A stretch of 32,109 nucleotides of DNA, taken from the NCBI GenBank assembly GCA_947629955.1, contig CANRFT010000027.1:1-32109 (forward strand). The letters are read 5' to 3'. This document shows positions 3,289 to 32,109 of this stretch, piece after piece. Under the pieces are notes generated by a model, which saw nothing but the letters and a program-made list of their open reading frames with translations, made no database searches and had not been told where the DNA came from. Position numbers and translations under genes: made by a program. Positions within the stretch are counted from its first letter, which is position 1, and every line of letters begins with the position of its first letter. This DNA is from an uncultured Oscillospiraceae bacterium. Lineage in GTDB: Bacteria; Bacillota; Clostridia; Oscillospirales; Oscillospiraceae.

Positions 3289-4452
3289 TTATAGAGTTTT
3301 CAGAAAACGCTCCAGCCGTCTCAGCGCCTCGTCCAGGTCCTTCATGGAGGCGGCGTAGCAGGCCCGGACAAAGCCCTCTCCGCCGGGGCCGAAGGCGGAG
3401 CCGGGGATGACCGCCACCTTCTCCGCCTCCAAAAACCGGTCGCAGAACTCCATCGAGGTGAGGCCGGTGGACTTGATACAGGGGAAGGTGTAGAAAGCCC
3501 CCCTGGGCTCGAAGCAGTCCAGCCCCAGAGAGCGGAAGCCGTCCACCAGGAAGCGGCGGCGGCCGTCGTACTCGTCCCGCATGGCCTCGATGTCCCCGTC
3601 GCCGTTGTTCATGGCCTCGATGGCGGCGTACTGGCTGGTGGTGGGGGCGGACATGATGCCGTACTGGTGGAGCTTGGTCATGGCGGCGATGAACGGCTTC
3701 GGCCCGCACACATAGCCCAGCCGCCAGCCGGTCATGGAGTATGCCTTGGAGAAGCCGTTGACCACCACGGTGCGCTCGTACATACCGGGGATGGAGGCGA
3801 TGGACACATGCCGCTGGCCATAAGTCAATTCCGCGTAGATCTCATCGGAGATGACCAGGATGTTGGTGCCCCGCAGCACCTCCGCGACGGCCTCCAGATC
3901 CTCCCTGGCCATGATGCCGCCGGTGGGGTTGCAGGGGAAGGGCAGCACCAGCGCCTTGGTCTTCGGCGTGATGGCGGCCCTCAGCTCCTCCGCGGTGAGG
4001 CGGAACTCGTTCTCCGCCTTGGTCTCCACGTACACCGGCACTCCGTGGTACATAGAGGTCAGCGGCCCGTAGCACACGAAAGAGGGGGTGGGGATGATGA
4101 CCTCGTCCCCCGGCTCGATGATGCAGCGGAGGGTCAGGTCCAGCCCCTCGCTGCCCCCCACGGTGAGCAAAACCTGGCCAATGGGGGCGTACTCCAGGCC
4201 GAACCGCCGTTTCATATAGGCGGAGACGGACCGCCGCAGGTCGGACAGGCCGGCGTTGGGGGTGTATTTGGTGAAGCCCTTCTCCAACGAGTAGATGCCC
4301 GCGTCCCGGATGTGCCAGGGGGTGGGAAAGTCCGGCTCGCCGATCCCCAGGGAGATGCCCCCCTCCATGCCCTGGAGCAGGTCGAAATATTTGCGGATGC
4401 CGGAGGGGGGGATGGCCTTTACCCGGCCGCACAAAAGCGCGTCGTAATTCAT
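3289..4452 (-). CDS. Pyridoxal-phosphate class I/II aminotransferase
   Basis: A 387-residue fold-type I aminotransferase. Visible landmarks are ISLGIGEPDFPTP near the N-terminus, the substrate-loop stretch PFPCNPTGG, the cofactor aspartate in VISDEIYAEL, the Schiff-base lysine in NGFSKAYSMTGWRLGY, and a C-terminal substrate-carboxylate region (FVRACYA). It belongs to the aspartate/alanine/aromatic group; substrate cannot be fixed by eye. Its ATG overlaps the stop of the upstream Lrp/AsnC gene by the ATGA arrangement, so the two are translationally coupled and the regulator very likely controls it. Confidence 0.92.
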   Translation of the reverse strand: MNYDALLCGRVKAIPPSGIRKYFDLLQGMEGGISLGIGEPDFPTPWHIRDAGIYSLEKGFTKYTPNAGLSDLRRSVSAYMKRRFGLEYAPIGQVLLTVGGSEGLDLTLRCIIEPGDEVIIPTPSFVCYGPLTSMYHGVPVYVETKAENEFRLTAEELRAAITPKTKALVLPFPCNPTGGIMAREDLEAVAEVLRGTNILVISDEIYAELTYGQRHVSIASIPGMYERTVVVNGFSKAYSMTGWRLGYVCGPKPFIAAMTKLHQYGIMSAPTTSQYAAIEAMNNGDGDIEAMRDEYDGRRRFLVDGFRSLGLDCFEPRGAFYTFPCIKSTGLTSMEFCDRFLEAEKVAVIPGSAFGPGGEGFVRACYAASMKDLDEALRRLERFLKTL

Positions 4453-4928
4453 TCCAGAACGAACCTCTCCTCCTGCTCCTCCTGGGCGGGGAAGATCAGG
4501 TGCTTCTCTTTGTATTTCTTCAAAATGAAGTGGGTGGCGGTGCCGGTCACATCCTCCAGGGTGGACAGCTTCTGGGTCACAAAGGTGGCCACCTCCTTCA
4601 GCGTCCGCCCGGAGATGATGACGGTCAGGTCAAAGGCCCCGCTCATCAGGTAGACCGATTCCACCTCGTCGTACTGGTAGATGCGCTCGGCCACCCGGTC
4701 GAAGCCGTTGCCCCGCTGTGGGGTCACCTTCACCTCGATCAGCGCGGTGACCGACTCCCGCTGGGTGCGGTCCCAGTCCACGATGGCCTTGTAGCCCAGG
4801 ATGATCTGATCCTTCTCATATCGGGCGACGGCGTCCCGAACCTCCTCCTCGCTCATGCCGGCCAGGGCGGCCAGCTGGGGGGTGGTCAGGGTGGCGTCGT
4901 CCTCTAAAAGCTGAAGCAGCTGTTTCAT
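4449..4928 (-). CDS. Lrp/AsnC family transcriptional regulator
   Basis: The 159-residue protein has an N-terminal winged-helix region (TTPQLAALAGMSEEEVRDAVARYE) and a C-terminal RAM/ligand domain (LMSGAFDLTVIISGRTLKEVATFV). Lrp/AsnC proteins sense amino acids and act on nearby metabolic genes. I chose the ATG at 4926-4928 because it follows a GGGAGGAAA site. A longer reading to 4991 would begin upstream of the transcription start expected from the TATAAT at 4994-4999. The helix-turn-helix part is somewhat shorter than in canonical Lrp. It is the first gene of the operon and probably autoregulated. Confidence 0.9.
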   Translation of the reverse strand: MKQLLQLLEDDATLTTPQLAALAGMSEEEVRDAVARYEKDQIILGYKAIVDWDRTQRESVTALIEVKVTPQRGNGFDRVAERIYQYDEVESVYLMSGAFDLTVIISGRTLKEVATFVTQKLSTLEDVTGTATHFILKKYKEKHLIFPAQEEQEERFVLE

Positions 4929-4993
4929 ACGGTTTCCTCCCACGCCCCGGCAGACAAAATCGCCGCTGCCGGAGCTGAAATTCTTAATCATAT

Positions 4994-5022
4994 ATTATAC
5001 AGAAATACCGGCGAAATAGCAA
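4994..5022 (-). promoter_or_regulatory. Sigma-A promoter of the lrp-aminotransferase-thrH operon
   Basis: Minus-strand TTGCTA (5017-5022), a 17-base spacer, and a perfect TATAAT (4994-4999). The leader to the 4928 start is about 60 bases and contains a 7-bp CCGGCAG/CTGCCGG hairpin. Confidence 0.8.
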
Positions 5023-5106
5023 CCCCATTTTCGCCCGGTTTATGGGCCGGATAATCCCCGTCCCGCGGGGCATACTGTCCCCGACTACGCGAAGGGCGGT
5101 ACCGGC

Positions 5107-5838
5107 ATGGGCAAGCGGATACGACAGGCAAAACTCTACATTCTGGCCACAGCGCTGCTGCTGCTCATCGAACAGCCAGTGCTGTGGGACCTGTACCGCC
5201 CGGCGGCGACCGCCAACGCCCCCCTGCCGACGGGCCCCTTCGTGGCCCTCACCTTTGACGACGGCCCCAAGGCGGAGACCACCTCCCGCCTGCTGGACGG
5301 CCTCTCCCAGCGGGGGGTCCGCTGCACCTTTTTCGTGCTGGGCGTCCAGTTGGAGGGCAACGAGGACCTGCTCCGCCGCATGGCGAACGAGGGCCACCAG
5401 ATCGGCCTGCACACCGCCCACCACAAGGCCCTGGCCGGCCTGGGCCCCGCCGACTTCTCCGCCGAGGTGGATGAACTTCGATTTGCCCTCACCGCCCTGC
5501 TGGGCCCGGAGGACTATATGCTCCGCCCGCCCTACGGCATGATCAGCCGCGCCGTGGAGGATCGCGCCGCCGCCCCCATCGTCCTGTGGTCGGTGGACCC
5601 GGAGGACTGGTCGGACCACGACGCCGCCCGCATCGCCGCCCACATCATCGACAACGCGAAAGACGGGGACATCATCCTGCTCCACGACATCTACGACGCC
5701 AGCGTGGACGCCGCCCTGGAGGCGGTGGACGCCCTCATGGCAAAGGGTTACACCTTCGTCACCGTGGAGGAGCTGTTCGCCCTTCGGGGGGTGGAGCCGG
5801 AGAACGGAAAGGTGTACCGAAAGCTGCCGCCGGCATAG
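5107..5838 (+). CDS. Polysaccharide deacetylase family protein (NodB homology)
   Basis: A 243-residue protein with an N-terminal hydrophobic anchor (about residues 8-22) and a NodB-homology domain. The metal and catalytic motifs are all present: TFDDGP (about 49-54), HTAHH as the His-x-x-x-His metal pair, RPPYG, WSVDPEDW and LLHDI. Such enzymes remove N- or O-acetyl groups from peptidoglycan, chitin-like or other cell-wall sugars outside the membrane. It stands alone, divergent from the Lrp operon, with an AAGGGCGG-like ribosome site before the ATG. Substrate is unknown. Confidence 0.9.
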   Translation: MGKRIRQAKLYILATALLLLIEQPVLWDLYRPAATANAPLPTGPFVALTFDDGPKAETTSRLLDGLSQRGVRCTFFVLGVQLEGNEDLLRRMANEGHQIGLHTAHHKALAGLGPADFSAEVDELRFALTALLGPEDYMLRPPYGMISRAVEDRAAAPIVLWSVDPEDWSDHDAARIAAHIIDNAKDGDIILLHDIYDASVDAALEAVDALMAKGYTFVTVEELFALRGVEPENGKVYRKLPPA

Positions 5839-5841
5839 CAG

Positions 5842-5868
5842 AGGCCCCGCTCGGTTCGAGCGGGGCCT
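5842..5868 (+). terminator. GC-rich hairpin after the deacetylase gene
   Basis: An 11-bp perfect stem (5842-5852 with 5858-5868) around a 5-base loop lies three bases past the stop codon. There is no T-run on the plus strand, so termination strength is uncertain. Confidence 0.5.
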
Positions 5869-5890
5869 GCGATAAACTGGAATTTGCAGA

Positions 5891-6442
5891 TCACAACCGT
5901 TTCAGCATCATATACTCATTTACAAAAGTGCCGTCTTTCAACCGTATCGCATCCGGTTTAATTCCCGTAATACGAAACCCCATCTTCTCATACAGCCTTC
6001 TCGCCCTGGTGTTTCCCTCTATGAAATCCAGTTCGATTTGGCGGACACCATCGCGTTTTTCTGCAATTTGAATCATTTCCTCAAACATCTTTGTTCCAAT
6101 TCCAAGGTTCCAATACTCTTGCAGGATTGCAATCGCGACAGAGGCTCTATGGCGGTCTTTCATTCTGGTACGAAAAGAAATCTGACAATTCCCGGCTACC
6201 TTTCCGTTCACAAAGCAAGCAATCATCATCTCATTCTGATTGCAGCAATTCTTATTTATGAAAGACGTTTCCTGCTCCAGAGTGAAATCCGCAAATTCTT
6301 CCGGGTACATATTCAGATAATCCGTCTCACCAGACGCTCTGATGATATACTGCAACATTTGCTCCGCATCCTTTTCGCAAGGGCTCCGAAGCAATGCCTC
6401 CCGGCCATCTTTTAATTCAAACTTTGTTTCTTTGAAAACCAC
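5891..6442 (-). CDS. GNAT family N-acetyltransferase
   Basis: A 183-residue GNAT protein of the RimJ/RimL-like type. Visible features are LRSPCEKDAEQMLQYI near the N-terminus, VAIAILQEYWNLGIGTKMFEEM with the acetyl-CoA loop (Q/R-x-x-G-x-G/A, here NLGIGT), and the C-terminal NTRARRLYEKMGFRITG. It transfers acetyl from acetyl-CoA to an amine; the acceptor is unknown. The start is GTG at 6440-6442, chosen for the GAGGTGA site eight bases before it. The gene is clearly AT-richer and uses different codons from its neighbours, suggesting recent transfer. Confidence 0.9.
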   Translation of the reverse strand: MVFKETKFELKDGREALLRSPCEKDAEQMLQYIIRASGETDYLNMYPEEFADFTLEQETSFINKNCCNQNEMMIACFVNGKVAGNCQISFRTRMKDRHRASVAIAILQEYWNLGIGTKMFEEMIQIAEKRDGVRQIELDFIEGNTRARRLYEKMGFRITGIKPDAIRLKDGTFVNEYMMLKRL

Positions 6443-6497
6443 TAACTTTCACCTCGGTAAATCCCGCTTTATCACACCGCTGGCCGGCAACAGGCGT

Positions 6498-7571
6498 TCA
6501 ATCCAATTTCAGATCTCCCTCTTTGATCCACCCGATCTTCCGCAGGGCCAGGCAGAACACCCAGGACAGCAAGGCGGGCAGGATGAAACACACCAGGGCC
6601 ATCCCCAGCCAGTCGAACCCGGTGGGGGCGATGGCGGCGGCCCCTTTGGCCAGGGCCTCCTCCCCGGGGGCCAGCCAGCCCGTCCACACCCCGATGGGCC
6701 CGCAGAGGCCGCAGGTACCCATGCCGGAGTTGATGGGGGCCCCGTTCATCTGGAGCTTGAACACGCAGGTGGCGATGGGCCCCGTGATGGCGGAGGCCAG
6801 GGTGGGCGGGATCCAGATCCGAGGGTTTTTGATGATGTTGGGCATTTGCAGCATGGAGGTGCCCAGGCCCTGACTCACCAGCCCGCCCCACCGGTTCTCC
6901 TTGAAGGACATGACGGCGAAGCCCACCATCTGGGCGCAGCACCCCGCCACCGCCGCCCCGCCGGCAAGGCCCGTCAGGGCCAGCACCTGGCAGATGGCGG
7001 CGGAGGAGATGGGCAGCGTCAGGGCCACGCCCACCAGCACCGACACGGCGATGCCCATCCAGAAAGGCTGGAGCTTGGTGGCGTTGTCGATGACCGTGCC
7101 GAAGGCGCTTGCCGCCGTGCCGATGGGGGGCGCGATGAGCTTTGCCAGGGCCACGCCCACCAGGATGGTGACGGCGGGGGTGACCAGGATGTCCACCTTG
7201 GTCTCCTTGCTCACGGCCTTGCCGCACTCAGCGGCCACGATGGCGATGACCAACACCGCCAGCGGCCCGCCGGCCCCGCCCTCGGCGTTGGCGGAGGCCC
7301 CCACGGCGGCCAGGGAGAACAGCACCATGGGGTCGGCCTTCAGGGCGTAGCCGATGGCCACCGCCATGGCCGGGCCGGAGACACCCATGGCATAGGTGCC
7401 GATGTCGGTGAGGAACTGCGCCCCCAGTTGGGTCCCCAGGGTCTTGATGATGGTGCCGATGAGCAGTGAGCAGAACAGGCCCTGGGCCATTGCCCCCAGG
7501 GCGTCGATTCCATAGCGCTTCGCGGAGAACACGATGTTCTTCCGCTTCAAAAACGCCTTTACTTTTTCCAT
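6498..7571 (-). CDS. PTS EIIC-like transporter (PTS_EIIC_2 type)
   Basis: A 357-residue, very hydrophobic protein with about nine to ten membrane segments. The pattern (MEKVKAFLKRKNI start, YGIDALGAMAQGLF, GGPLAVLVIAIVAAE, INSGMGTCGLCGPIG, ALRKIGWIKEGDLKL end) fits the PTS_EIIC_2 family, membrane proteins related to the IIC subunit of sugar phosphotransferase systems. No IIA or IIB gene is nearby, and members of this family often occur alone, so phosphotransfer-coupled uptake is unproven. A consensus sigma-A promoter at 7636-7663 and a large hairpin at 7604-7635 precede it. Confidence 0.85.
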   Translation of the reverse strand: MEKVKAFLKRKNIVFSAKRYGIDALGAMAQGLFCSLLIGTIIKTLGTQLGAQFLTDIGTYAMGVSGPAMAVAIGYALKADPMVLFSLAAVGASANAEGGAGGPLAVLVIAIVAAECGKAVSKETKVDILVTPAVTILVGVALAKLIAPPIGTAASAFGTVIDNATKLQPFWMGIAVSVLVGVALTLPISSAAICQVLALTGLAGGAAVAGCCAQMVGFAVMSFKENRWGGLVSQGLGTSMLQMPNIIKNPRIWIPPTLASAITGPIATCVFKLQMNGAPINSGMGTCGLCGPIGVWTGWLAPGEEALAKGAAAIAPTGFDWLGMALVCFILPALLSWVFCLALRKIGWIKEGDLKLD

Positions 7572-7603
7572 AGCGAATCCCGCCTTTCAACGCGCAAAAA
7601 AAC

Positions 7604-7635
7604 AGTCCGCAGCAGAGAGATCTCTGTTGCGGACT
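7604..7635 (-). terminator. Terminator of the XRE gene, overlapping the PTS IIC leader
   Basis: A 32-base palindrome (7604-7617 paired with 7622-7635, one G-T) is followed on the minus strand by seven T residues (7596-7602). It would stop transcripts from the XRE gene. The PTS promoter -10 box ends at 7636, so RNA initiated there starts inside the left arm and cannot form the full hairpin. Confidence 0.75.
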
Positions 7636-7663
7636 ATTATAGTCATCGCGGCGGATTTGTCAA
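7636..7663 (-). promoter_or_regulatory. Consensus sigma-A promoter of the PTS IIC gene
   Basis: Perfect TTGACA (7658-7663) and perfect TATAAT (7636-7641) on the minus strand with a 16-base spacer. The -35 box overlaps the stop codon of the XRE gene (7660-7662). Confidence 0.85.
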
Positions 7664-8367
7664 TCGTCATTTCGACCACGTCGGTACAGCCAGACCGCCA
7701 ACGCGATCCCGACAATCAGGACCACCACCCCGGCCACGAGGATGGCGGTGGCAAAGCCCTGGAACAGCCGTCCCATATCGCTGACCACACTCACGCCGCC
7801 AAGGCTGCCTGTGCCGCCGCCCAGTTCTCCGATGATCTGATCTACCACCTCCGGCGGCAGGTTCTCCGCCCCCTCGATGGTGACGCCGCCCATGCCGCCG
7901 AAACCGCCCATGCCGTTGAAGGCGTCCAGAGAGATCCGGAACATCCGCCCGAACAGGAACCGGGCCAGCCCTCCCACAAAGGCGAGCCCCAGCCCGGACA
8001 GGGCCACATACACCCCCGCCAGCCAGCCGTACCGCCGGATCAGGCGGATCAGAAAGCCGGGCAGCCGGTCCAGCGCGTCAGACGGGGCGCCGCCCCCCTG
8101 CCCGTAAGAATAGGGCTGGGGTCCCTCCGTCCGGGGCTCCTGTTCCGGCTCCGGGCCGGATTGAGACGGCTCCTCCTCGCTGAGCAGCTCGTCGGCTGTG
8201 ACGCCGAAGGCCCGCGCCAGGGCCAGCAGCTTATCCACCTCCGGGGTCGCGTCGCCAAGCTCCCACTTGCTCACCGCCTGGCGGCTGACGCCCACGGCGG
8301 CGGCCAGCTCCTCCTGGGACAGCTTCGCCCGCCTGCGGTAGTATAAGATCTTCTCGTTCAGCTTCAT
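7660..8367 (-). CDS. XRE family regulator with C-terminal membrane segments
   Basis: A 235-residue protein. Residues 1-60 are an XRE/Cro-type helix-turn-helix (LSQEELAAAVGVSRQAVSKWE), then an acidic Pro/Glu/Gln-rich linker (about 65-95), and two hydrophobic segments (about 110-135 and 205-228) separated by a Gly-rich stretch. The layout suggests a membrane-tethered DNA-binding protein that reads an envelope signal; the signal is unknown. The start follows a GAGAGGAG site. It is divergent from cdd, and a perfect 23-bp palindrome at 8455-8477 lies upstream, matching the one before the second XRE gene at 19011-19589. Confidence 0.88.
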   Translation of the reverse strand: MKLNEKILYYRRRAKLSQEELAAAVGVSRQAVSKWELGDATPEVDKLLALARAFGVTADELLSEEEPSQSGPEPEQEPRTEGPQPYSYGQGGGAPSDALDRLPGFLIRLIRRYGWLAGVYVALSGLGLAFVGGLARFLFGRMFRISLDAFNGMGGFGGMGGVTIEGAENLPPEVVDQIIGELGGGTGSLGGVSVVSDMGRLFQGFATAILVAGVVVLIVGIALAVWLYRRGRNDD

Positions 8368-8454
8368 GGGATCCGCTCCTCTCTGTCAGTAATCTCCTGA
8401 CAGGTATAAGATAGCAGAAAACCCGGTTGCGGTCTACCAGCCGGGGCTGGAAGT

Positions 8455-8477
8455 TTTCGCAACCGTCGGTTGCGAAA
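8455..8477. promoter_or_regulatory. Putative XRE operator (palindrome) between XRE gene and cdd
   Basis: A perfect 11+1+11 palindrome with half-site TTTCGCAACCG. An additional half-site (CGGTTGCGG) lies at about 8424-8432, near the likely XRE promoter region. The same palindrome type recurs at 19661-19683 before the other XRE gene. Confidence 0.65.
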
Positions 8478-8608
8478 GCCGTTTCGCGGGAAATTCGAGC
8501 CTTCACCGCTCCCAGAGTATACCATCCCGCCGGATCTGTCAACCCGCCCTTCCCTTTCGCCGGAAAGTGTGCTATCATAGAGGAAATCGCTTGAAAGGGG
8601 CCCTTCCC

Positions 8609-9001
8609 ATGACCGACCGTGAGCTCGTCGACCTGGCCTTCACCATGCTGGACCGCGCCTATGTGCCCTACTCCAGATTCCCCGTGGGGGCCGCCCTGGA
8701 GACGGCGGACGGCTCGGTGTTCACCGGCTGTAATGTGGAGAACGCCGCCTACGGCTCCACCATCTGCGCCGAGCGGTGCGCCCTGCTGAAGGCGGTGAGC
8801 GAGGGACACCGAGACCCGGCGCGGATCGCCATCGCCGGCATGGGGGAGGACTACTGCTGGCCCTGCGGCGCCTGCCGGCAGATGCTCTACGAGTTCAACC
8901 CGGACATGACCGTGCTGTGCGCCGATCGGGACCGGGATTTCGTGAAAATCACCCTTCGGGAGTTGATGCCCCACGGATTTGGCCCCGCTTCCCTCTGTTA
9001 A
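8609..9001 (+). CDS. cdd: Cytidine deaminase
   Basis: A 130-residue homotetrameric-type cytidine deaminase that converts cytidine and deoxycytidine to uridine forms in pyrimidine salvage. The zinc and catalytic motifs are clear: CNVENAAYGSTICAERCAL, with the Cys-Ala-Glu zinc ligand and proton shuttle, and PCGACRQMLYEF with the two zinc cysteines. YVPYSRFPVGAAL near the N-terminus is also typical. I chose the ATG at 8609 because it follows AAAGGGG and fits the family start; a longer in-frame reading adds unrelated residues. An extended -10 (TGCTATCAT, 8570-8578) lies upstream. It is divergent from the XRE regulator. Confidence 0.95.
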   Translation: MTDRELVDLAFTMLDRAYVPYSRFPVGAALETADGSVFTGCNVENAAYGSTICAERCALLKAVSEGHRDPARIAIAGMGEDYCWPCGACRQMLYEFNPDMTVLCADRDRDFVKITLRELMPHGFGPASLC

Positions 9002-9013
9002 AGCAAAAAAGGC

Positions 9014-9042
9014 TTGCAATTTTCCGCCGTCCGCTATATGCT
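9014..9042 (+). promoter_or_regulatory. Probable sigma-A promoter of the shikimate operon
   Basis: TTGCAA (9014-9019), a 17-base spacer, and TATGCT (9037-9042), 37 bases before the aroF start. I see no terminator between cdd and aroF, so some read-through is possible. No T-box or other leader motif is recognisable in this short gap. Confidence 0.6.
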
Positions 9043-9079
9043 GTGACCGGCAAAATCCATCTGGAAGGGATGTTTTACT

Positions 9080-10099
9080 ATGGTAATCGTCATGAAGCCC
9101 GGCACCAGCCAGGCGAAGATCCGGGCCCTGGTGGCCCGTCTGGAGAAGGACCACGGGGTCAAGGTGGGCATCACCAACGGCGTGGACTGCTCCATTCTGG
9201 GTCTCGTAGGGGACACCACCCACATCGACATGGACAAGCTGTCCATGAACGAGGATGTGGAGCGGGTCATGCGGGTGCAGGAGCCCTATAAAAAGGCCAA
9301 CCGCAAATTCCACCCGGAGGACACCGTAGTGGATGTCAACGGCGTCAAGGTGGGAGGCGGCGCCTTCACCGTCATCGCCGGGCCCTGCTCGGTGGAGAGC
9401 GAGGAGCAGATCGTGGGCATCGCCCGGAATGTGATGGCCTCCGGTGCCTCCATGCTCCGGGGCGGCGCCTTCAAGCCCCGCACCTCCCCCTACTCCTTCC
9501 AGGGCATGGGGGCCCCCGGCCTGGACCTGCTGCTGGAGGCCAAGGCGGCCACCGGCCTGCCCATCGTCACTGAGCTCATGAGCCCCAAATACTGCGAGCT
9601 GTTCGAAAGCGAAGTTGACCTGGTCCAGATCGGCGCCCGGAACATGCAGAACTTCGACCTGCTGAAAGAGGTGGGCAAGATGTCCAAGCCCATCCTGCTG
9701 AAGCGGGGCCTGTCCAACACCTATGAGGAGTGGATCATGTCGGCGGAGTACATCATGGCCTCCGGCAATGAGAACGTGATCCTCTGCGAGCGGGGGGTCC
9801 GCACCTTCGAGACCTACACCCGGAACACCCTGGACCTGTCCGCCATCCCGGCCATCCGGCGGATGAGCCACCTGCCCATCATCGTGGACCCCTCCCACGC
9901 CGCCGGCATGTACTGGATGGTGGAGCCCCTGTCCATGGCCGCCGCCGCCGTGGGGGCGGACGGCATCATGGTGGAGGTCCACAACGACCCGCCCCACGCC
10001 AAGTGCGACGGGCAGCAGTCCCTGACCCCTGAGTCCTTCCAGCACCTGATGGACAAGGTAAAGCCCCTGGTCTCCCTGGTGGGCAAGACGCTGGCGTGA
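9080..10099 (+). CDS. aroF: 3-deoxy-7-phosphoheptulonate synthase (DAHP synthase)
   Basis: The first enzyme of the shikimate pathway joins phosphoenolpyruvate and erythrose 4-phosphate. The 339-residue protein is the type I-beta form: an N-terminal ferredoxin-like regulatory domain (residues 1 to about 70, starting MVIVMKPGTS) followed by the KDO8P-synthase-like TIM barrel. Barrel landmarks are GPCSVES (101-107), KPRTSPYSFQG (132-142), LLKRG (206-210) and DPSHAAG (270-276). The N-terminal domain in this group mediates feedback inhibition by aromatic amino acids or pathway products. It is the first gene of the aro operon and is followed four bases later by aroB. Confidence 0.95.
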   Translation: MVIVMKPGTSQAKIRALVARLEKDHGVKVGITNGVDCSILGLVGDTTHIDMDKLSMNEDVERVMRVQEPYKKANRKFHPEDTVVDVNGVKVGGGAFTVIAGPCSVESEEQIVGIARNVMASGASMLRGGAFKPRTSPYSFQGMGAPGLDLLLEAKAATGLPIVTELMSPKYCELFESEVDLVQIGARNMQNFDLLKEVGKMSKPILLKRGLSNTYEEWIMSAEYIMASGNENVILCERGVRTFETYTRNTLDLSAIPAIRRMSHLPIIVDPSHAAGMYWMVEPLSMAAAAVGADGIMVEVHNDPPHAKCDGQQSLTPESFQHLMDKVKPLVSLVGKTLA

Positions 10100-10103
10100 C
10101 GCG

Positions 10104-11183
10104 ATGAAAACCTTGACTGTGGCCCTTCCGGGCCGGGAATATGACATCCTCATCCAGCGGGGCCTGCTGGACGCCGCCGGCGAGCGCGTCCGGGCCGTCT
10201 GCCCCAGAGCCCGGCGGCTGTTCATCGTCACCGACGACAACGTGGCCCCCCTGTATCTGGACTGGGTGGAGGCCAGCCTGCGCGGGGCGGGCTTTGAGAC
10301 CGCCGCCGCCGTCCTCCCCGCCGGGGAGGAGACCAAGTGCGGCTCCATGCTGCTGGAGCTGTGGGAACGAATGATGGACTTCGGCCTCACCCGCACCGAC
10401 GCCGTGGTGGCGTTGGGCGGTGGGGTCGTAGGGGACCTGGCGGGCTTTGCCGCCGCCACCATCCTCCGGGGGGTGGACTTTGTGCAGATCCCCACCACCC
10501 TGCTGGCCCAGGTGGACTCCTCCGTGGGCGGCAAGGTGGCCGTGGACCTGGAGCACGGCAAGAACCTGGCCGGGGCCTTTTGGCAGCCCAGGCTGGTGCT
10601 CATGGACCCGGACGTGCTGGATACCCTGCCCCTGCCGGTGTTCATGGCGGGGATGGCAGAGGTGCTGAAATACGGCTGCATCCGGGACGGGGACTTCTTC
10701 GATTTCCTGGCCGCCCGGCCAAGCCGGGAGGCGCTGATGGCCGATATTGAGCACATTTTGTATACCTGCTGCGATATTAAACGGCAGGTGGTCATGGAGG
10801 ACGAGCGGGACACCGGCCTGCGGATGATCCTGAACTTCGGCCACACGGTGGGCCACGCCTTTGAGAAGGCGGGCCGCTATGTGGAGTGGAGCCACGGGGA
10901 GGCAGTGGCCGCCGGCATGTGCGTGGCCGCAAAGCTGGGCGTGGCCCTGGGCGTCACCCCGGCCGATGTGCCCGCGAAGATCGAGGGCGCCGCGGCCGCC
11001 CTGGGTCTGCCCACTCACATCTCCTGCGGCTGGAACGACATCGTGGAGGCCGTCGGACTGGACAAAAAGAGCGCCGGCAGCCAGATCAGCCTCATTCTGC
11101 TGGAGAAAATGGGCCATGCCGTGGCCGTGAAGATGGAAAAAGACGCGGTCCTCCGCACGCTGAAGGCCGTTTACGAGGGGTGA
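10104..11183 (+). CDS. aroB: 3-dehydroquinate synthase
   Basis: A 359-residue enzyme that cyclises DAHP to 3-dehydroquinate using NAD and a divalent metal. Visible are GGGVVGDLAGF (105-115), PTTLLAQVDSSVGGK (130-144), the metal-ligand region MAEVLKYG, and NFGHTVGHAFE plus SHGEAVAAGM with the metal histidines. Length is normal. It lies four bases after aroF and four bases before aroA, in the same operon. Confidence 0.96.
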   Translation: MKTLTVALPGREYDILIQRGLLDAAGERVRAVCPRARRLFIVTDDNVAPLYLDWVEASLRGAGFETAAAVLPAGEETKCGSMLLELWERMMDFGLTRTDAVVALGGGVVGDLAGFAAATILRGVDFVQIPTTLLAQVDSSVGGKVAVDLEHGKNLAGAFWQPRLVLMDPDVLDTLPLPVFMAGMAEVLKYGCIRDGDFFDFLAARPSREALMADIEHILYTCCDIKRQVVMEDERDTGLRMILNFGHTVGHAFEKAGRYVEWSHGEAVAAGMCVAAKLGVALGVTPADVPAKIEGAAAALGLPTHISCGWNDIVEAVGLDKKSAGSQISLILLEKMGHAVAVKMEKDAVLRTLKAVYEG

Positions 11184-28937: not shown

Positions 28938-28965
28938 TTTACAAATCATTTTTTTCTGATATAAT
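28938..28965 (+). promoter_or_regulatory. Sigma-A promoter of the tRNA-Ala locus
   Basis: TTTACA (28938-28943), 16 bases, perfect TATAAT (28960-28965) with extended TGA. It is the only strong promoter found before the intact tRNA, which lies about 670 bases downstream; two truncated tRNA halves come first. Confidence 0.75.
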
Positions 28966-28997: not shown

Positions 28998-29035
28998 GGG
29001 CCCGTAGCTCAGTTGGGAGAGCGCTGCGTTCGCAA
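28998..29035 (+). pseudogene. Truncated tRNA-Ala(CGC), 5' half A
   Basis: Positions 1-38 of a tRNA: acceptor 5' strand GGGCCCG, full D arm, anticodon 5' strand CTGCG and loop TTCGCAA, after which the tRNA ends and GCATACGAATCC begins. It differs from the other two copies at five of 38 positions, so it derives from a different tRNA-Ala gene. It lacks the anticodon 3' strand, T arm and acceptor 3' strand and cannot make a tRNA. Confidence 0.85.
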
Positions 29036-29355
29036 GCATACGAATCCCCATCCTACACCCCATTTCCCCATCAATCCGGCCAAAATTTTTCGCCACTCCC
29101 TGCCGAAAAATTTTGGTTCGGCGGCAAAGCCGCCGCCAATTTTCGTCACCTGCTCCTCTTTTCCCCTCTTCCCCTCCTCTTCCCCCCTCCTTCCTCCGCC
29201 GTCACAATCTTCTATTATTATATATAAAAACACCCTAATTCCCCCGTTTTGTCTCATAAATACAAAGAAAAATACCCATGTCCCCCTTAACACCTCACAT
29301 AACGGTGAGATTAATATGGGCCTGTAGCTCAGTTGGGAGAGCGTTCGGTTCGCAT
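29036..29355 (+). repeat. 320-bp tandem repeat, copy 1
   Basis: Runs from GCATACGAATCC to the end of tRNA 5' half B. It contains a 13-bp inverted repeat (29080-29092 with 29104-29116), a GGCGGC-AAA-GCCGCC hairpin (29120-29134), a pure pyrimidine tract of about 45 bases (around 29150-29198), an AT-rich stretch, and a CTCAC/GTGAG hairpin before the tRNA half. I see no gene in it. It differs from copy 2 only at 29067 (C) against 29387 (T). Together with copy 2 it fills the 28855-29637 interval that lacks a protein gene. Confidence 0.95.
29318..29355 (+). pseudogene. Truncated tRNA-Ala(CGC), 5' half B
   Basis: Positions 1-38, identical to the same part of the intact tRNA at 29638: acceptor GGGCCTG, D arm, TTCGG and loop TTCGCAT. 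It is then joined to GCATACGAATCC, exactly as half A is. Confidence 0.88.
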
Positions 29356-29675
29356 GCATACGAATCCCCATCCTACACCCCATTTCTCCATCAATCCGGC
29401 CAAAATTTTTCGCCACTCCCTGCCGAAAAATTTTGGTTCGGCGGCAAAGCCGCCGCCAATTTTCGTCACCTGCTCCTCTTTTCCCCTCTTCCCCTCCTCT
29501 TCCCCCCTCCTTCCTCCGCCGTCACAATCTTCTATTATTATATATAAAAACACCCTAATTCCCCCGTTTTGTCTCATAAATACAAAGAAAAATACCCATG
29601 TCCCCCTTAACACCTCACATAACGGTGAGATTAATATGGGCCTGTAGCTCAGTTGGGAGAGCGTTCGGTTCGCAT
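29356..29675 (+). repeat. 320-bp tandem repeat, copy 2
   Basis: Second copy, 319 of 320 bases identical to 29036-29355. Its last 38 bases are the first 38 bases of the intact tRNA. The hairpins recur at 29400-29436 and 29440-29454. Confidence 0.95.
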
Positions 29676-29713
29676 CCGAGAGGTCGAGAGTTCGAGTCTC
29701 TTCAGGTCCACCA
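29638..29713 (+). tRNA. tRNA-Ala(CGC)
   Basis: A complete 76-base cloverleaf with encoded CCA. Acceptor GGGCCTG pairs with CAGGTCC and includes G3-U70, the alanine identity pair. D arm GCTC/GAGC, anticodon stem TTCGG/CCGAG with loop TTCGCAT (anticodon CGC, reads GCG), T arm GAGAG/CTCTT with loop TTCGAGT, discriminator A. It is the only complete tRNA in the window and follows two truncated 5' halves. Confidence 0.95.
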
Positions 29714-29719
29714 AACGGA

Positions 29720-29750
29720 AACCACCGCGGATCATTCCGCGGTGGTTTTT
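29720..29750 (+). terminator. Terminator of the tRNA-Ala locus
   Basis: A 12-bp stem (29720-29731 with 29736-29747) around TCAT with five T residues at its end, seven bases past the tRNA CCA. Confidence 0.88.
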
Positions 29751-29781
29751 CGTTTGACCACAGGAATACCACAGAGAGGGT

Positions 29782-30237: not shown

Positions 30238-30331
30238 CTATGTCAAGCACAGACTAAGGGAATTTTGTAAATAAAATGTGAATTGAGTCAAATCGTGGTG
30301 CCTTGTGTCGAATTATGGCGTTAATCCATTG

Positions 30332-30778
30332 TCAGACAATATCTCGCACTCTCACAGTCAGGCCATTCATAGATACCCTCATGTTCCCGACCAGATAATA
30401 GTCAAACCCGTCATACTCCACGCGGGTCAAAGTCCAGTAAGGGCCATCGTGATATTCATCGGTCACAAGAGCCTCAATGCGGCTCCCGCAACAGTAGTAA
30501 TGACCACCGACCGTCTCATACTTGCCGAGCTCATTTCTATGAAGGTTACTGACCTCCAGGACAGGGCTGTTCAAGTAGGAGATCACATCGTCCACGTCAG
30601 CCAGCTTTTCCATTGCCAGCCGCAGTTCATCTCTTAGCAAAACCTGCTCTGGATCAGAGAGGTCTACGTCAAGTCCGCTCAGGTCTTCATTGTCATTGTA
30701 GGTAGACAGTTTGAGAAGCCGCCGAATACTTAGGTTCAGCTTGTTTGTTTCCTCGTATACCCTCTGCAAGGTTAGCAT
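30332..30778 (-). CDS. DUF5348-like protein
   Basis: A 148-residue protein. The N-terminal part (1 to about 85) is helical and charged. The C-terminal part (YETVGGHYYCCGSRIEAL in part, WTLTRVEYDGFDYYLVG, GLTVRVRDIV) fits the DUF5348 family, small proteins common on clostridial plasmids and integrative elements. Function is unknown. It lies 18 bases after the small recombinase-like gene and is probably co-transcribed with the serine recombinase. Its association with mobile DNA suggests a role in element maintenance or conjugation, which is inference. Confidence 0.72.
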   Translation of the reverse strand: MLTLQRVYEETNKLNLSIRRLLKLSTYNDNEDLSGLDVDLSDPEQVLLRDELRLAMEKLADVDDVISYLNSPVLEVSNLHRNELGKYETVGGHYYCCGSRIEALVTDEYHDGPYWTLTRVEYDGFDYYLVGNMRVSMNGLTVRVRDIV

Positions 30779-30796
30779 AACTACCGCCTTTCTTGT

Positions 30797-31201
30797 TCAT
30801 TCCCGCTCTGAAGCTGTGATGCCGCTGTAACACGTTGCTAAGCCCCCATAAAGCCGTTTGGCTGCCAAGAGGCAAGCCTCAATCCCATCCGCGCTTTCAG
30901 AAACAAAGAGCAGCTTTTTTTCGCGCATTTTGAGAGCTTCCCAAAACTCCAAGCAGGTAAGGGAATCACGGCTGACACGGGCAGGGTTAAAGACGAGAAC
31001 AGCATCGAAAAGGTCCGAGTCAGCCAGCTGAAGGATCGCATCGAGGGAAGACGTATTGGCCAAACCTGAGATTCCACAGTCCTCTATTACAGCGGTAACT
31101 TTATGGCCCCCGTCAGCGGCGTATTCCTTTAGCCGTTGTGCCTGGATTTGGAGAGCCAACTGTTCCTTTCTGTCAACTCGGGCATAAATACATACATTCA
31201 T
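30797..31201 (-). CDS. Stand-alone resolvase-fold protein lacking the catalytic serine
   Basis: A 134-residue protein with the N-terminal resolvase fold: VCIYARVDRKEQLALQIQ, AADGGHKVTAVIEDCGISG and VFNPARVSRDSLTCLEFW. In active serine recombinases the first motif is YARVSxxEQ with the nucleophile Ser; here it is Asp10 (YARVD). The arginine usually following SG....R is also absent (NTSSLDAIL). It has no recombinase or zinc-ribbon domain. It is therefore probably inactive in strand cleavage and may regulate or partner the large recombinase just upstream. The start follows GGGGAA. Confidence 0.8.
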   Translation of the reverse strand: MNVCIYARVDRKEQLALQIQAQRLKEYAADGGHKVTAVIEDCGISGLANTSSLDAILQLADSDLFDAVLVFNPARVSRDSLTCLEFWEALKMREKKLLFVSESADGIEACLLAAKRLYGGLATCYSGITASERE

Positions 31202-31215
31202 TGTTCATTCCCCTA

Positions 31216-32109
31216 TTATAATTCATTTTGCGCTGAGGCTCCATGAACCTGACCAAGCGTGCTTGCAATATCATCGAGGTAGTTCAGCGATATTTCCACC
31301 CTGCCGTCCTGCCAAATCGTTATACGGTCAAGCAGGTCGGCAGCGATCTCCGTTGTCAGCTTGTCCAGTTCAGCATACCCCTGATACTTTGCAACAAAGT
31401 CAGGGCTGGGAGTACTGATTTCCAACACCTTTGATTTTGCTTCAGCTTCCGACCGACGGAGGGCGTCACGTTGGTCCAAGATGACGGCTTTGCGCTGTGC
31501 GTAGGTATCCCGCGATATAGTTCCCGCGATAAATTCCTCATACAGCTTTTGAGTCTGCTCCGCTGCTTGGGCCAGCTGCTCATGGATCTGTCTGAGTTCC
31601 TGTTGAAGCGAACGGGCCGTGTTCTCCTGCTCGGCACGAAAACGATCAGCGATATGCTTCAGCTCTATCGCGTATCTGGCCTGCGCCCGGATCGCCTCGA
31701 CCACCATCTCCATGAGATCCTTCTCAAAGATCTTCTCCTGGCAGCAGGTCAGGCCGGGAACCGTCCGAGGTTTGCCGCAGCGGTAATACTTATTCTTAGA
31801 ACCGCGACGGACGATTGCATAGTGGCAGACGCCGCAGTAAACCTTTCTGCTCAGGGGATTGTCGATTCTTCTTTGACAAATCTGCTTATATCCACCTCCA
31901 AGCTGTTCCTGAGCCATCTGAAACAGATTTTTCGATACCAGCGGTTCATGGCAGTCATCTACCACGATCCAGTCCTCCAGCCTCGCGGTCAAAGTCCGCC
32001 TGACGCCGATCTGCCTGCGGGTCCGTTTCCCAAAAACATTGCTCCCAATGTACTGGCGGTCACGCAGGATATAATACACGTTATTTTTCGACCAGTATTC
32101 ATTGGACCA
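31216..32109 (-). CDS. Large serine recombinase (partial, runs off the right edge)
   Basis: The last 297 residues of a large serine recombinase; the reading frame stays open to base 32109, so the N-terminal catalytic domain is outside. Visible are the recombinase domain (VYYILRDRQYIGSNVFGK, VDDCHEPLVSKNLF), the zinc ribbon (YCGVCHYAIVRR, then CGKPRTVPGLTCCQEKIFEK), and a long coiled coil (about residues 150-245 of the fragment) typical of the integration-direction switch. Such enzymes integrate and excise phages and transposons at attP/attB sites. It is followed 14 bases later by the small resolvase-like gene. Confidence 0.9.
   Translation of the reverse strand, partial: WSNEYWSKNNVYYILRDRQYIGSNVFGKRTRRQIGVRRTLTARLEDWIVVDDCHEPLVSKNLFQMAQEQLGGGYKQICQRRIDNPLSRKVYCGVCHYAIVRRGSKNKYYRCGKPRTVPGLTCCQEKIFEKDLMEMVVEAIRAQARYAIELKHIADRFRAEQENTARSLQQELRQIHEQLAQAAEQTQKLYEEFIAGTISRDTYAQRKAVILDQRDALRRSEAEAKSKVLEISTPSPDFVAKYQGYAELDKLTTEIAADLLDRITIWQDGRVEISLNYLDDIASTLGQVHGASAQNEL

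Follow-up and report, generated by a model that had tools for sequence, protein, structure and literature searches.

The broken tRNA pieces that precede the tRNA-Ala(CGC) gene in the window (the whole stretch of 32,109 nucleotides analysed here, from an uncultured Oscillospiraceae bacterium) are probably the stacked scars of mobile elements that entered this tRNA gene one after another and each supplied a complete tRNA in its place. Read 5' to 3' on the forward strand, the locus consists of a promoter, a 38-nt tRNA-Ala 5' half, a 282-bp spacer (X), another half, another X, and an intact tRNA-Ala(CGC); from the first half onward, the preliminary description of this DNA was correct in order and coordinates. 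The conserved promoter (TTTACA..TATAAT, 11 of 12 consensus matches) lies at 28938–28965 and is followed by half A (28998–29035), the native tRNA-Ala(CGC) 5' half, which stops at the end of the anticodon loop (TTCGCAA). X copy 1 (29036–29317), the putative left-end spacer of an integrated element, separates half A from half B (29318–29355), the 5' half of an element-type tRNA-Ala, whose 38 nt are the same as those with which the intact tRNA begins. X copy 2 (29356–29637) then leads to the intact tRNA (29638–29713; RF00005, 63.6 bits), which presumably arrived with an element. The two copies of X match at 281 of 282 positions. The single base that had been said to distinguish the 320-bp units holds in the register 29036–29355 versus 29356–29675 (C/T at 29067); counted from half A to half B, the units match at 314 of 320 positions because the two halves differ at 5 of 38.

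A hairpin with a T run follows the tRNA on the same strand (29722–29750; read by eye and not listed by the computed scan), and its sequence recurs after the tRNA in two loci of relatives (L050 and L053). The arm-like repeats TGACCACA and TACCACAG (29755–29774, the second recognized by eye) are proposed as arm sites of an integrase, and the target tRNA is adjoined by a C-terminal piece of a tyrosine integrase, IntA (PF00589; 29782–30237, reverse strand), whose N-terminal side is cut off. Other DNA (30238–32109), with DUF5348, resolvase, and recombinase genes, interrupts IntA at about residue 323; in the relative G030 (L153, near 8030) IntA is broken at nearly the same residue, and the junction looks similar by eye. 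A strong double hairpin is present inside X at 29080–29150 (z −5.65 versus shuffles). Two terminators were found inside X versus 0.8 expected (S.D. 1.1), and half B is no more stable as a folded RNA element than its shuffles. An upstream partial copy of a gene's own 5' part within 1 kb was seen for 2 of 65 distinct tRNA genes, a set comprising the loci of 30 of the 32 tRNA matches in the same genome and the integrase loci of relatives. The two are the tRNA-Ala of the window and tRNA-Arg(CCT), both in one genome, and given this count the arrangement of tRNA halves is not due to chance.

The identity of half A is apparent from relatives. Five genomes of the same genus (G005, G017, G026, G032, and G064) have an unbroken tRNA-Ala(CGC) at the same locus, behind the same promoter and a transglutaminase gene, and the first 38 nt of that intact gene are the same as half A. 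Because half A has this sequence and is unlike half B at 5 of 38 positions, it was not copied from the present tRNA, and to judge from these comparisons it derives from the native tRNA-Ala(CGC) gene, the 5' half of which still stands at its promoter. The promoter pattern was found in 34 of the 42 genomes of the genus, that of the window included (the match in G028 needs two mismatches), and the tRNA pattern in 32 of 42. All 32 of the latter were examined, and the complete tRNA was located in all except G022. Among the resulting 31, a recognizable 5' half lies between promoter and tRNA in 13: the genome of the window (G000), G013, G016, G018, G021, G023, G024, G029, G030, G033, G036, G061, and G062. 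Three others (G027, G060, and G063) have a long leader with no recognizable half, and G004, outside the set of 31, has a strongly decayed one. A similar stretch around GGGCCAGTTATATGC is common to the outermost Ala halves of G036, G033, G013, G030, and G029 (L159, L215, L216, L161, and L162). G016 (L171) has two 107-bp half-spacer units with a changed loop at its tRNA-Ala(CGC), which look identical by eye; the 11 kb examined downstream contain nothing like IntA or IntB at E 1e-6. The acceptor and anticodon stems of tRNA-Ala(CGC) vary among species of the genus; in the anticodon stems of the species compared, the partner strands match by eye.

The spacer itself is restricted in distribution. 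The preliminary description had proposed searching X for copies after other tRNA halves; in the same genome and in 59 others it was found at the tRNA-Ala locus alone, beyond the tRNA part in three of the 59 (G023, G029, and G030). These same-genus metagenome-assembled genomes (MAGs) carry two to three diverged X units each. The nine X parts compared, including those of the window, are 167–282 bp long, and whole units are 83–95% identical in every pair except the window's own pair (98%). Two distinct types of X are common to G023 and G029, so that the clade has long had more than one unit. A different spacer, X', occupies the same place in G018, G024, and G062 and, decayed and free of arm-like repeats, in G004. 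Several identifications of X were rejected. It is not the same sequence as X', with which it shares no clear homology beyond 20 bp at E 0.47. Nor is it a dispersed repeat, the genome of the window having no further copy, or recognizable phage DNA, since the top match in a phage collection, H1, proves on inspection by eye to be a tRNA-Ala and its flank in a record that bears no annotation. Two patterns used to look for a circular form revealed none; one gave nothing, and the single viral match to the other (L055) lies inside a 341-residue ORF of a phage contig and was taken as chance.

The remainder of the Ala element is best seen in G023, in which the tRNA is followed by two full-length tyrosine integrase genes in tandem, IntA and IntB, and the contig beyond them contains a DUF6809 match below the family cut-off, a Fic gene, and a MobL relaxase; in the window the element is cut off. 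In G023 and G029, and at two sites in G030, the right end of the element (Y-TTCGCAT) is fused to an orphan tRNA 3' half. In G029 it adjoins an ADP-ribosylglycohydrolase gene, and one of the G030 right ends runs directly into the element's own terminator and integrase and is thus a stacked junction; a related right end, likewise followed by a terminator, is present in G009. Neither a right end nor an orphan 3' half was found in the genome of the window, and in G023 one right end was found versus three X units. Two candidate markers on this side were discarded: flank sequence of G030 matched a locus on contig C17 of the window's genome that has no 3' half, and TrkH is next to the tRNA in just 4 of the 31 located loci.

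The orphan 3' halves of G023 and G029 pair with half A of the window at 7/7 acceptor and 5/5 anticodon stem positions and with half B at 7/7 and 3/5. The outermost half of G023 pairs with the G023 orphan at 7/7 and 3/5, and for its anticodon stem later recombination must therefore be assumed. Position 38 is A, the native base, at the half A junction of the window and T at the right end in G023, as predicted for a reciprocal exchange after this position. A native 5' half combined with an element 3' half would pair at 6/7 and 3/5 positions, whereas the element's own halves pair at 7/7 and 5/5. All six loci with arm-like repeats readable after tRNA-Ala carry X or X', but these come from related genomes and do not represent six independent events. 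Relatives of IntA at E 1e-60 or better are present in 28 of the 42 genomes, that of the window included, with Val or Pro tRNAs as neighbours in some cases or a Thr tRNA nearby; no arrays of 5' halves were seen at these same-family integrase loci with Val, Thr, or Pro tRNAs in the stretches examined.

The same half-plus-spacer build, with a spacer of about 66 bp, is found at tRNA-Arg(CCT) in the genome of the window. Halves are present in 9 of 22 Arg loci displayed (G000, G004, G008, G013, G015, G016, G019, and two in G033), which are a selection from the Arg matches together with the window's genome, and are less clear in a tenth (G030). One strict pattern retrieves the build from 14 of 394 genomes, in 13 of the 168 genera of the order, the window's genome again included, and 11 of these 14 loci passed the display filter. 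The proposal of a small tRNA-targeting repeat family thus holds in part, though in altered form: X is not dispersed, but the build, with different spacers, recurs at one further tRNA in this genome and in other members of the order. In all six Arg loci followed, each along one contig, a convergent integrase match starts 300–390 bp after the tRNA. The element in G212 has a relaxase and a weak TraG match among the 10 ORFs scanned of 40 listed. On contig C23 (L247), five consecutive ORFs of similar size (420–440 residues) follow tRNA-Arg(CCT) at 3903–10433; only the first was scanned, and Pfam gave no match for it.

At two Arg loci an orphan 3' half pairs fully with a single upstream half. In G212, about 68.5 kb separate the orphan from the upstream junction, and of three 5' halves it pairs 12/12 only with the adjacent upstream one. 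The tRNA-Arg of G178 is preceded by four different halves, and an orphan that lies behind the right-end sequence of G212 (100% identity over 100 nt, 98.5% over 200) pairs 12/12 with the outermost half alone among five 5' halves; this half adjoins the spacer type that G212 carries with the shared right end. The tRNA of G265 has five halves before it, in an array in which three 93-bp units are identical and a fourth matches them at 87/93 positions. The G265 orphan 3' half has no pairing partner among six halves; the pairing counts are rough, since the 38 nt taken include one base past the CCA end, but inspection by eye also gave no partner. No orphan 3' half was seen in the stretches examined of G223, G200, and G112.

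The position at which identity between loci rises bears on what an element carries. In several pairs of genomes a step occurs at the spacer and not within the half: for the 100 bp before the half, the half, the spacer, the tRNA, and the 100 bp after it, identities are 55, 77, 98, 100, and 90% for G349 versus G033, which are of different families, 59, 90, 96, 100, and 97% for G265 versus G223, and 59, 82, 92, 100, and 100% for G018 versus G024. The step is less or absent for G349 versus G212 (78, 97, 98, 100, and 89%) and G018 versus G062 (60, 82, 78, 84, and 83%) and weak for the window versus G023 (68, 87, 91, 99, and 99%). These boundary identities appear to favour the carriage of a whole tRNA by the element over that of a restoring fragment. 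The classical reading, in which the element restores only the 3' half, was abandoned as the main reading on the strength of the boundary identities and the orphan pairing. What speaks for it is the geometry of the arm-like repeats, which are placed about evenly round the tRNA core, at −135 and +86 for Ala and, as calculated from offsets, at about −146 and +150 for Arg, and suit a compact classical attP with a tRNA core better than one that contains the spacer.

In the mechanism that we propose, the tyrosine integrase of the element would act on the native tRNA-Ala(CGC) by recombination inside its 7-nt anticodon loop, and the insertion would split the native gene into half A and a far-off 3' half. 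Just inside the left end of the element would lie spacer X and a complete tRNA-Ala(CGC), followed by the arm-like sites and the integrase. Because the element carries a complete tRNA, it would replace the gene that it destroys, and little beyond the loop need be common with the target; badly paired mixed tRNAs would also be avoided. Transcription would presumably run from the native promoter through the scars to the tRNA. Since the new tRNA presents the same loop, a later element could insert there and leave another 5' half and spacer, in which case the halves nearest the promoter would be the oldest; the second X of the window may have been added by this same route.

The number of units, as distinct from the origin of the halves, may also have a local explanation, to which we assign a probability only a little short of even: one integration would have set half A, X, and tRNA, and the second X-half unit would have arisen in the lineage by unequal recombination or slippage. 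The near identity of the window's X copies suits this explanation, as do the three identical units of G265 and the two of G016 that look identical by eye, and the genome of the window yields one integrase end and no right end. However, a crossover between half A and the tRNA 5' half predicts A at position 38 of half B, where T is found, followed by the start of X; homology alone does not give the half B–X junction from present sequences, and the two X types shared by G023 and G029 are evidence of multiplicity already old in the clade. Unequal recombination, one of the explanations offered initially, may thus have doubled the unit but leaves unexplained the native type of half A and a junction exactly at the end of the anticodon loop, whereas repeated integration at the tRNA, the other, is supported as the origin of the halves; the doubling of X in the window may be due to a second integration or to local duplication.

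The placement of the arm-like repeats as in a compact attP also keeps a role for small mobile units alive, alongside local duplication, in the multiplication of units. A more far-reaching reading, which we consider unlikely, is that the arrays are ordered archives of integrations, each unit the left end of a different element and the oldest nearest the promoter, in which a half with its spacer can be excised and reinserted by the integrase between two cores; tRNA genes would then be growing cassette arrays swapped whole by mobile DNA. It is likewise doubtful, and somewhat more so, that the half-spacer units are themselves small cassettes, circles of spacer and 5' half that an integrase inserts into the anticodon loop independently of the large element. 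Each unit is indeed bounded on both sides by the same loop, a tRNA core suits the placement of the arm-like sites better than a spacer core does, and spacers are mixed within arrays; yet spacer, next tRNA, and the 100 bp beyond stay alike between families, orphan 3' halves mark large elements, and no free unit occurs elsewhere in the genome of the window. There is very little likelihood that the arrays arose by tandem duplication of tRNAs, with later decay of the 3' half in the upstream copies. The Arg spacers T3 and T4 resemble a shrunken 3' half (mononucleotide-shuffle P 0.008–0.016), but X, X', S, T1, T2, and T5 do not (P 0.37–0.89), several halves differ in type from the tRNA that comes next, and the boundary falls at the loop. 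Moreover, at two Arg loci an upstream half has a perfect partner 3' half across the element, orphaned tens of kilobases away; for Ala, perfect partners are found only between genomes (half A of the window and the G023 and G029 orphans). A short-read assembly artefact is hardly credible: the genome is in 75 contigs and the unit exceeds short-read length, but arrays of diverged units in three other MAGs indicate that assembly error does not explain the array itself.

Stacking of invading elements as proposed here has parallels in known systems. In CIME/IME accretion, elements stack site-specifically at one attachment site and their remnants keep att sites; the loci described here are similar in their stacking, but their remnants are 5'-side spacers, 43–282 bp long among the cases compared, and a tRNA 5' half accompanies each. 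In integron cassette arrays, too, short units stand in order and have grown at one recombination site beside a tyrosine recombinase, although the units here look like the ends of large elements.

Of the 3919 Islander tRNA-gene islands, according to the available part of their account, 159 have a 5' fragment and 2083 a site that is centred on the anticodon (PMC4383910); these islands share with the present elements a tyrosine integrase, an anticodon-loop crossover, an end-marking tRNA fragment, and tandem stacking. Their attP carries a tRNA fragment that restores the gene (PMC4383910), whereas here a whole tRNA is seemingly carried behind a spacer, and here 5' halves pile up upstream, with 3' halves at the far end. 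In Caldiarchaeum, as in the window, a 5' fragment of another form, in that case of tRNA-Thr, lies upstream of the complete tRNA, and a mobile element has been proposed as the cause; that case differs in being archaeal and in having a single fragment, which a recombinase element of 1.8 kb separates from the tRNA, and the available part of the account contains no array of halves (PMC3293823). Fragments of tRNA produced by integration are described as a known source of misannotation (PMC9897764, in part). The portions of the literature searched contain no description of arrays of tRNA 5' halves, which is not proof that none is in print.

If the proposed reading is right, mobile elements repeatedly swap whole tRNA genes instead of mending half of one and require little beyond the anticodon loop to be shared with the target. 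Such whole-gene swaps would explain why the stems of tRNA-Ala(CGC) vary among species within the genus. From the halves left behind, the order of earlier invasions could be read even after the loss of the elements, a record that searches for a fragment together with an intact element would miss.
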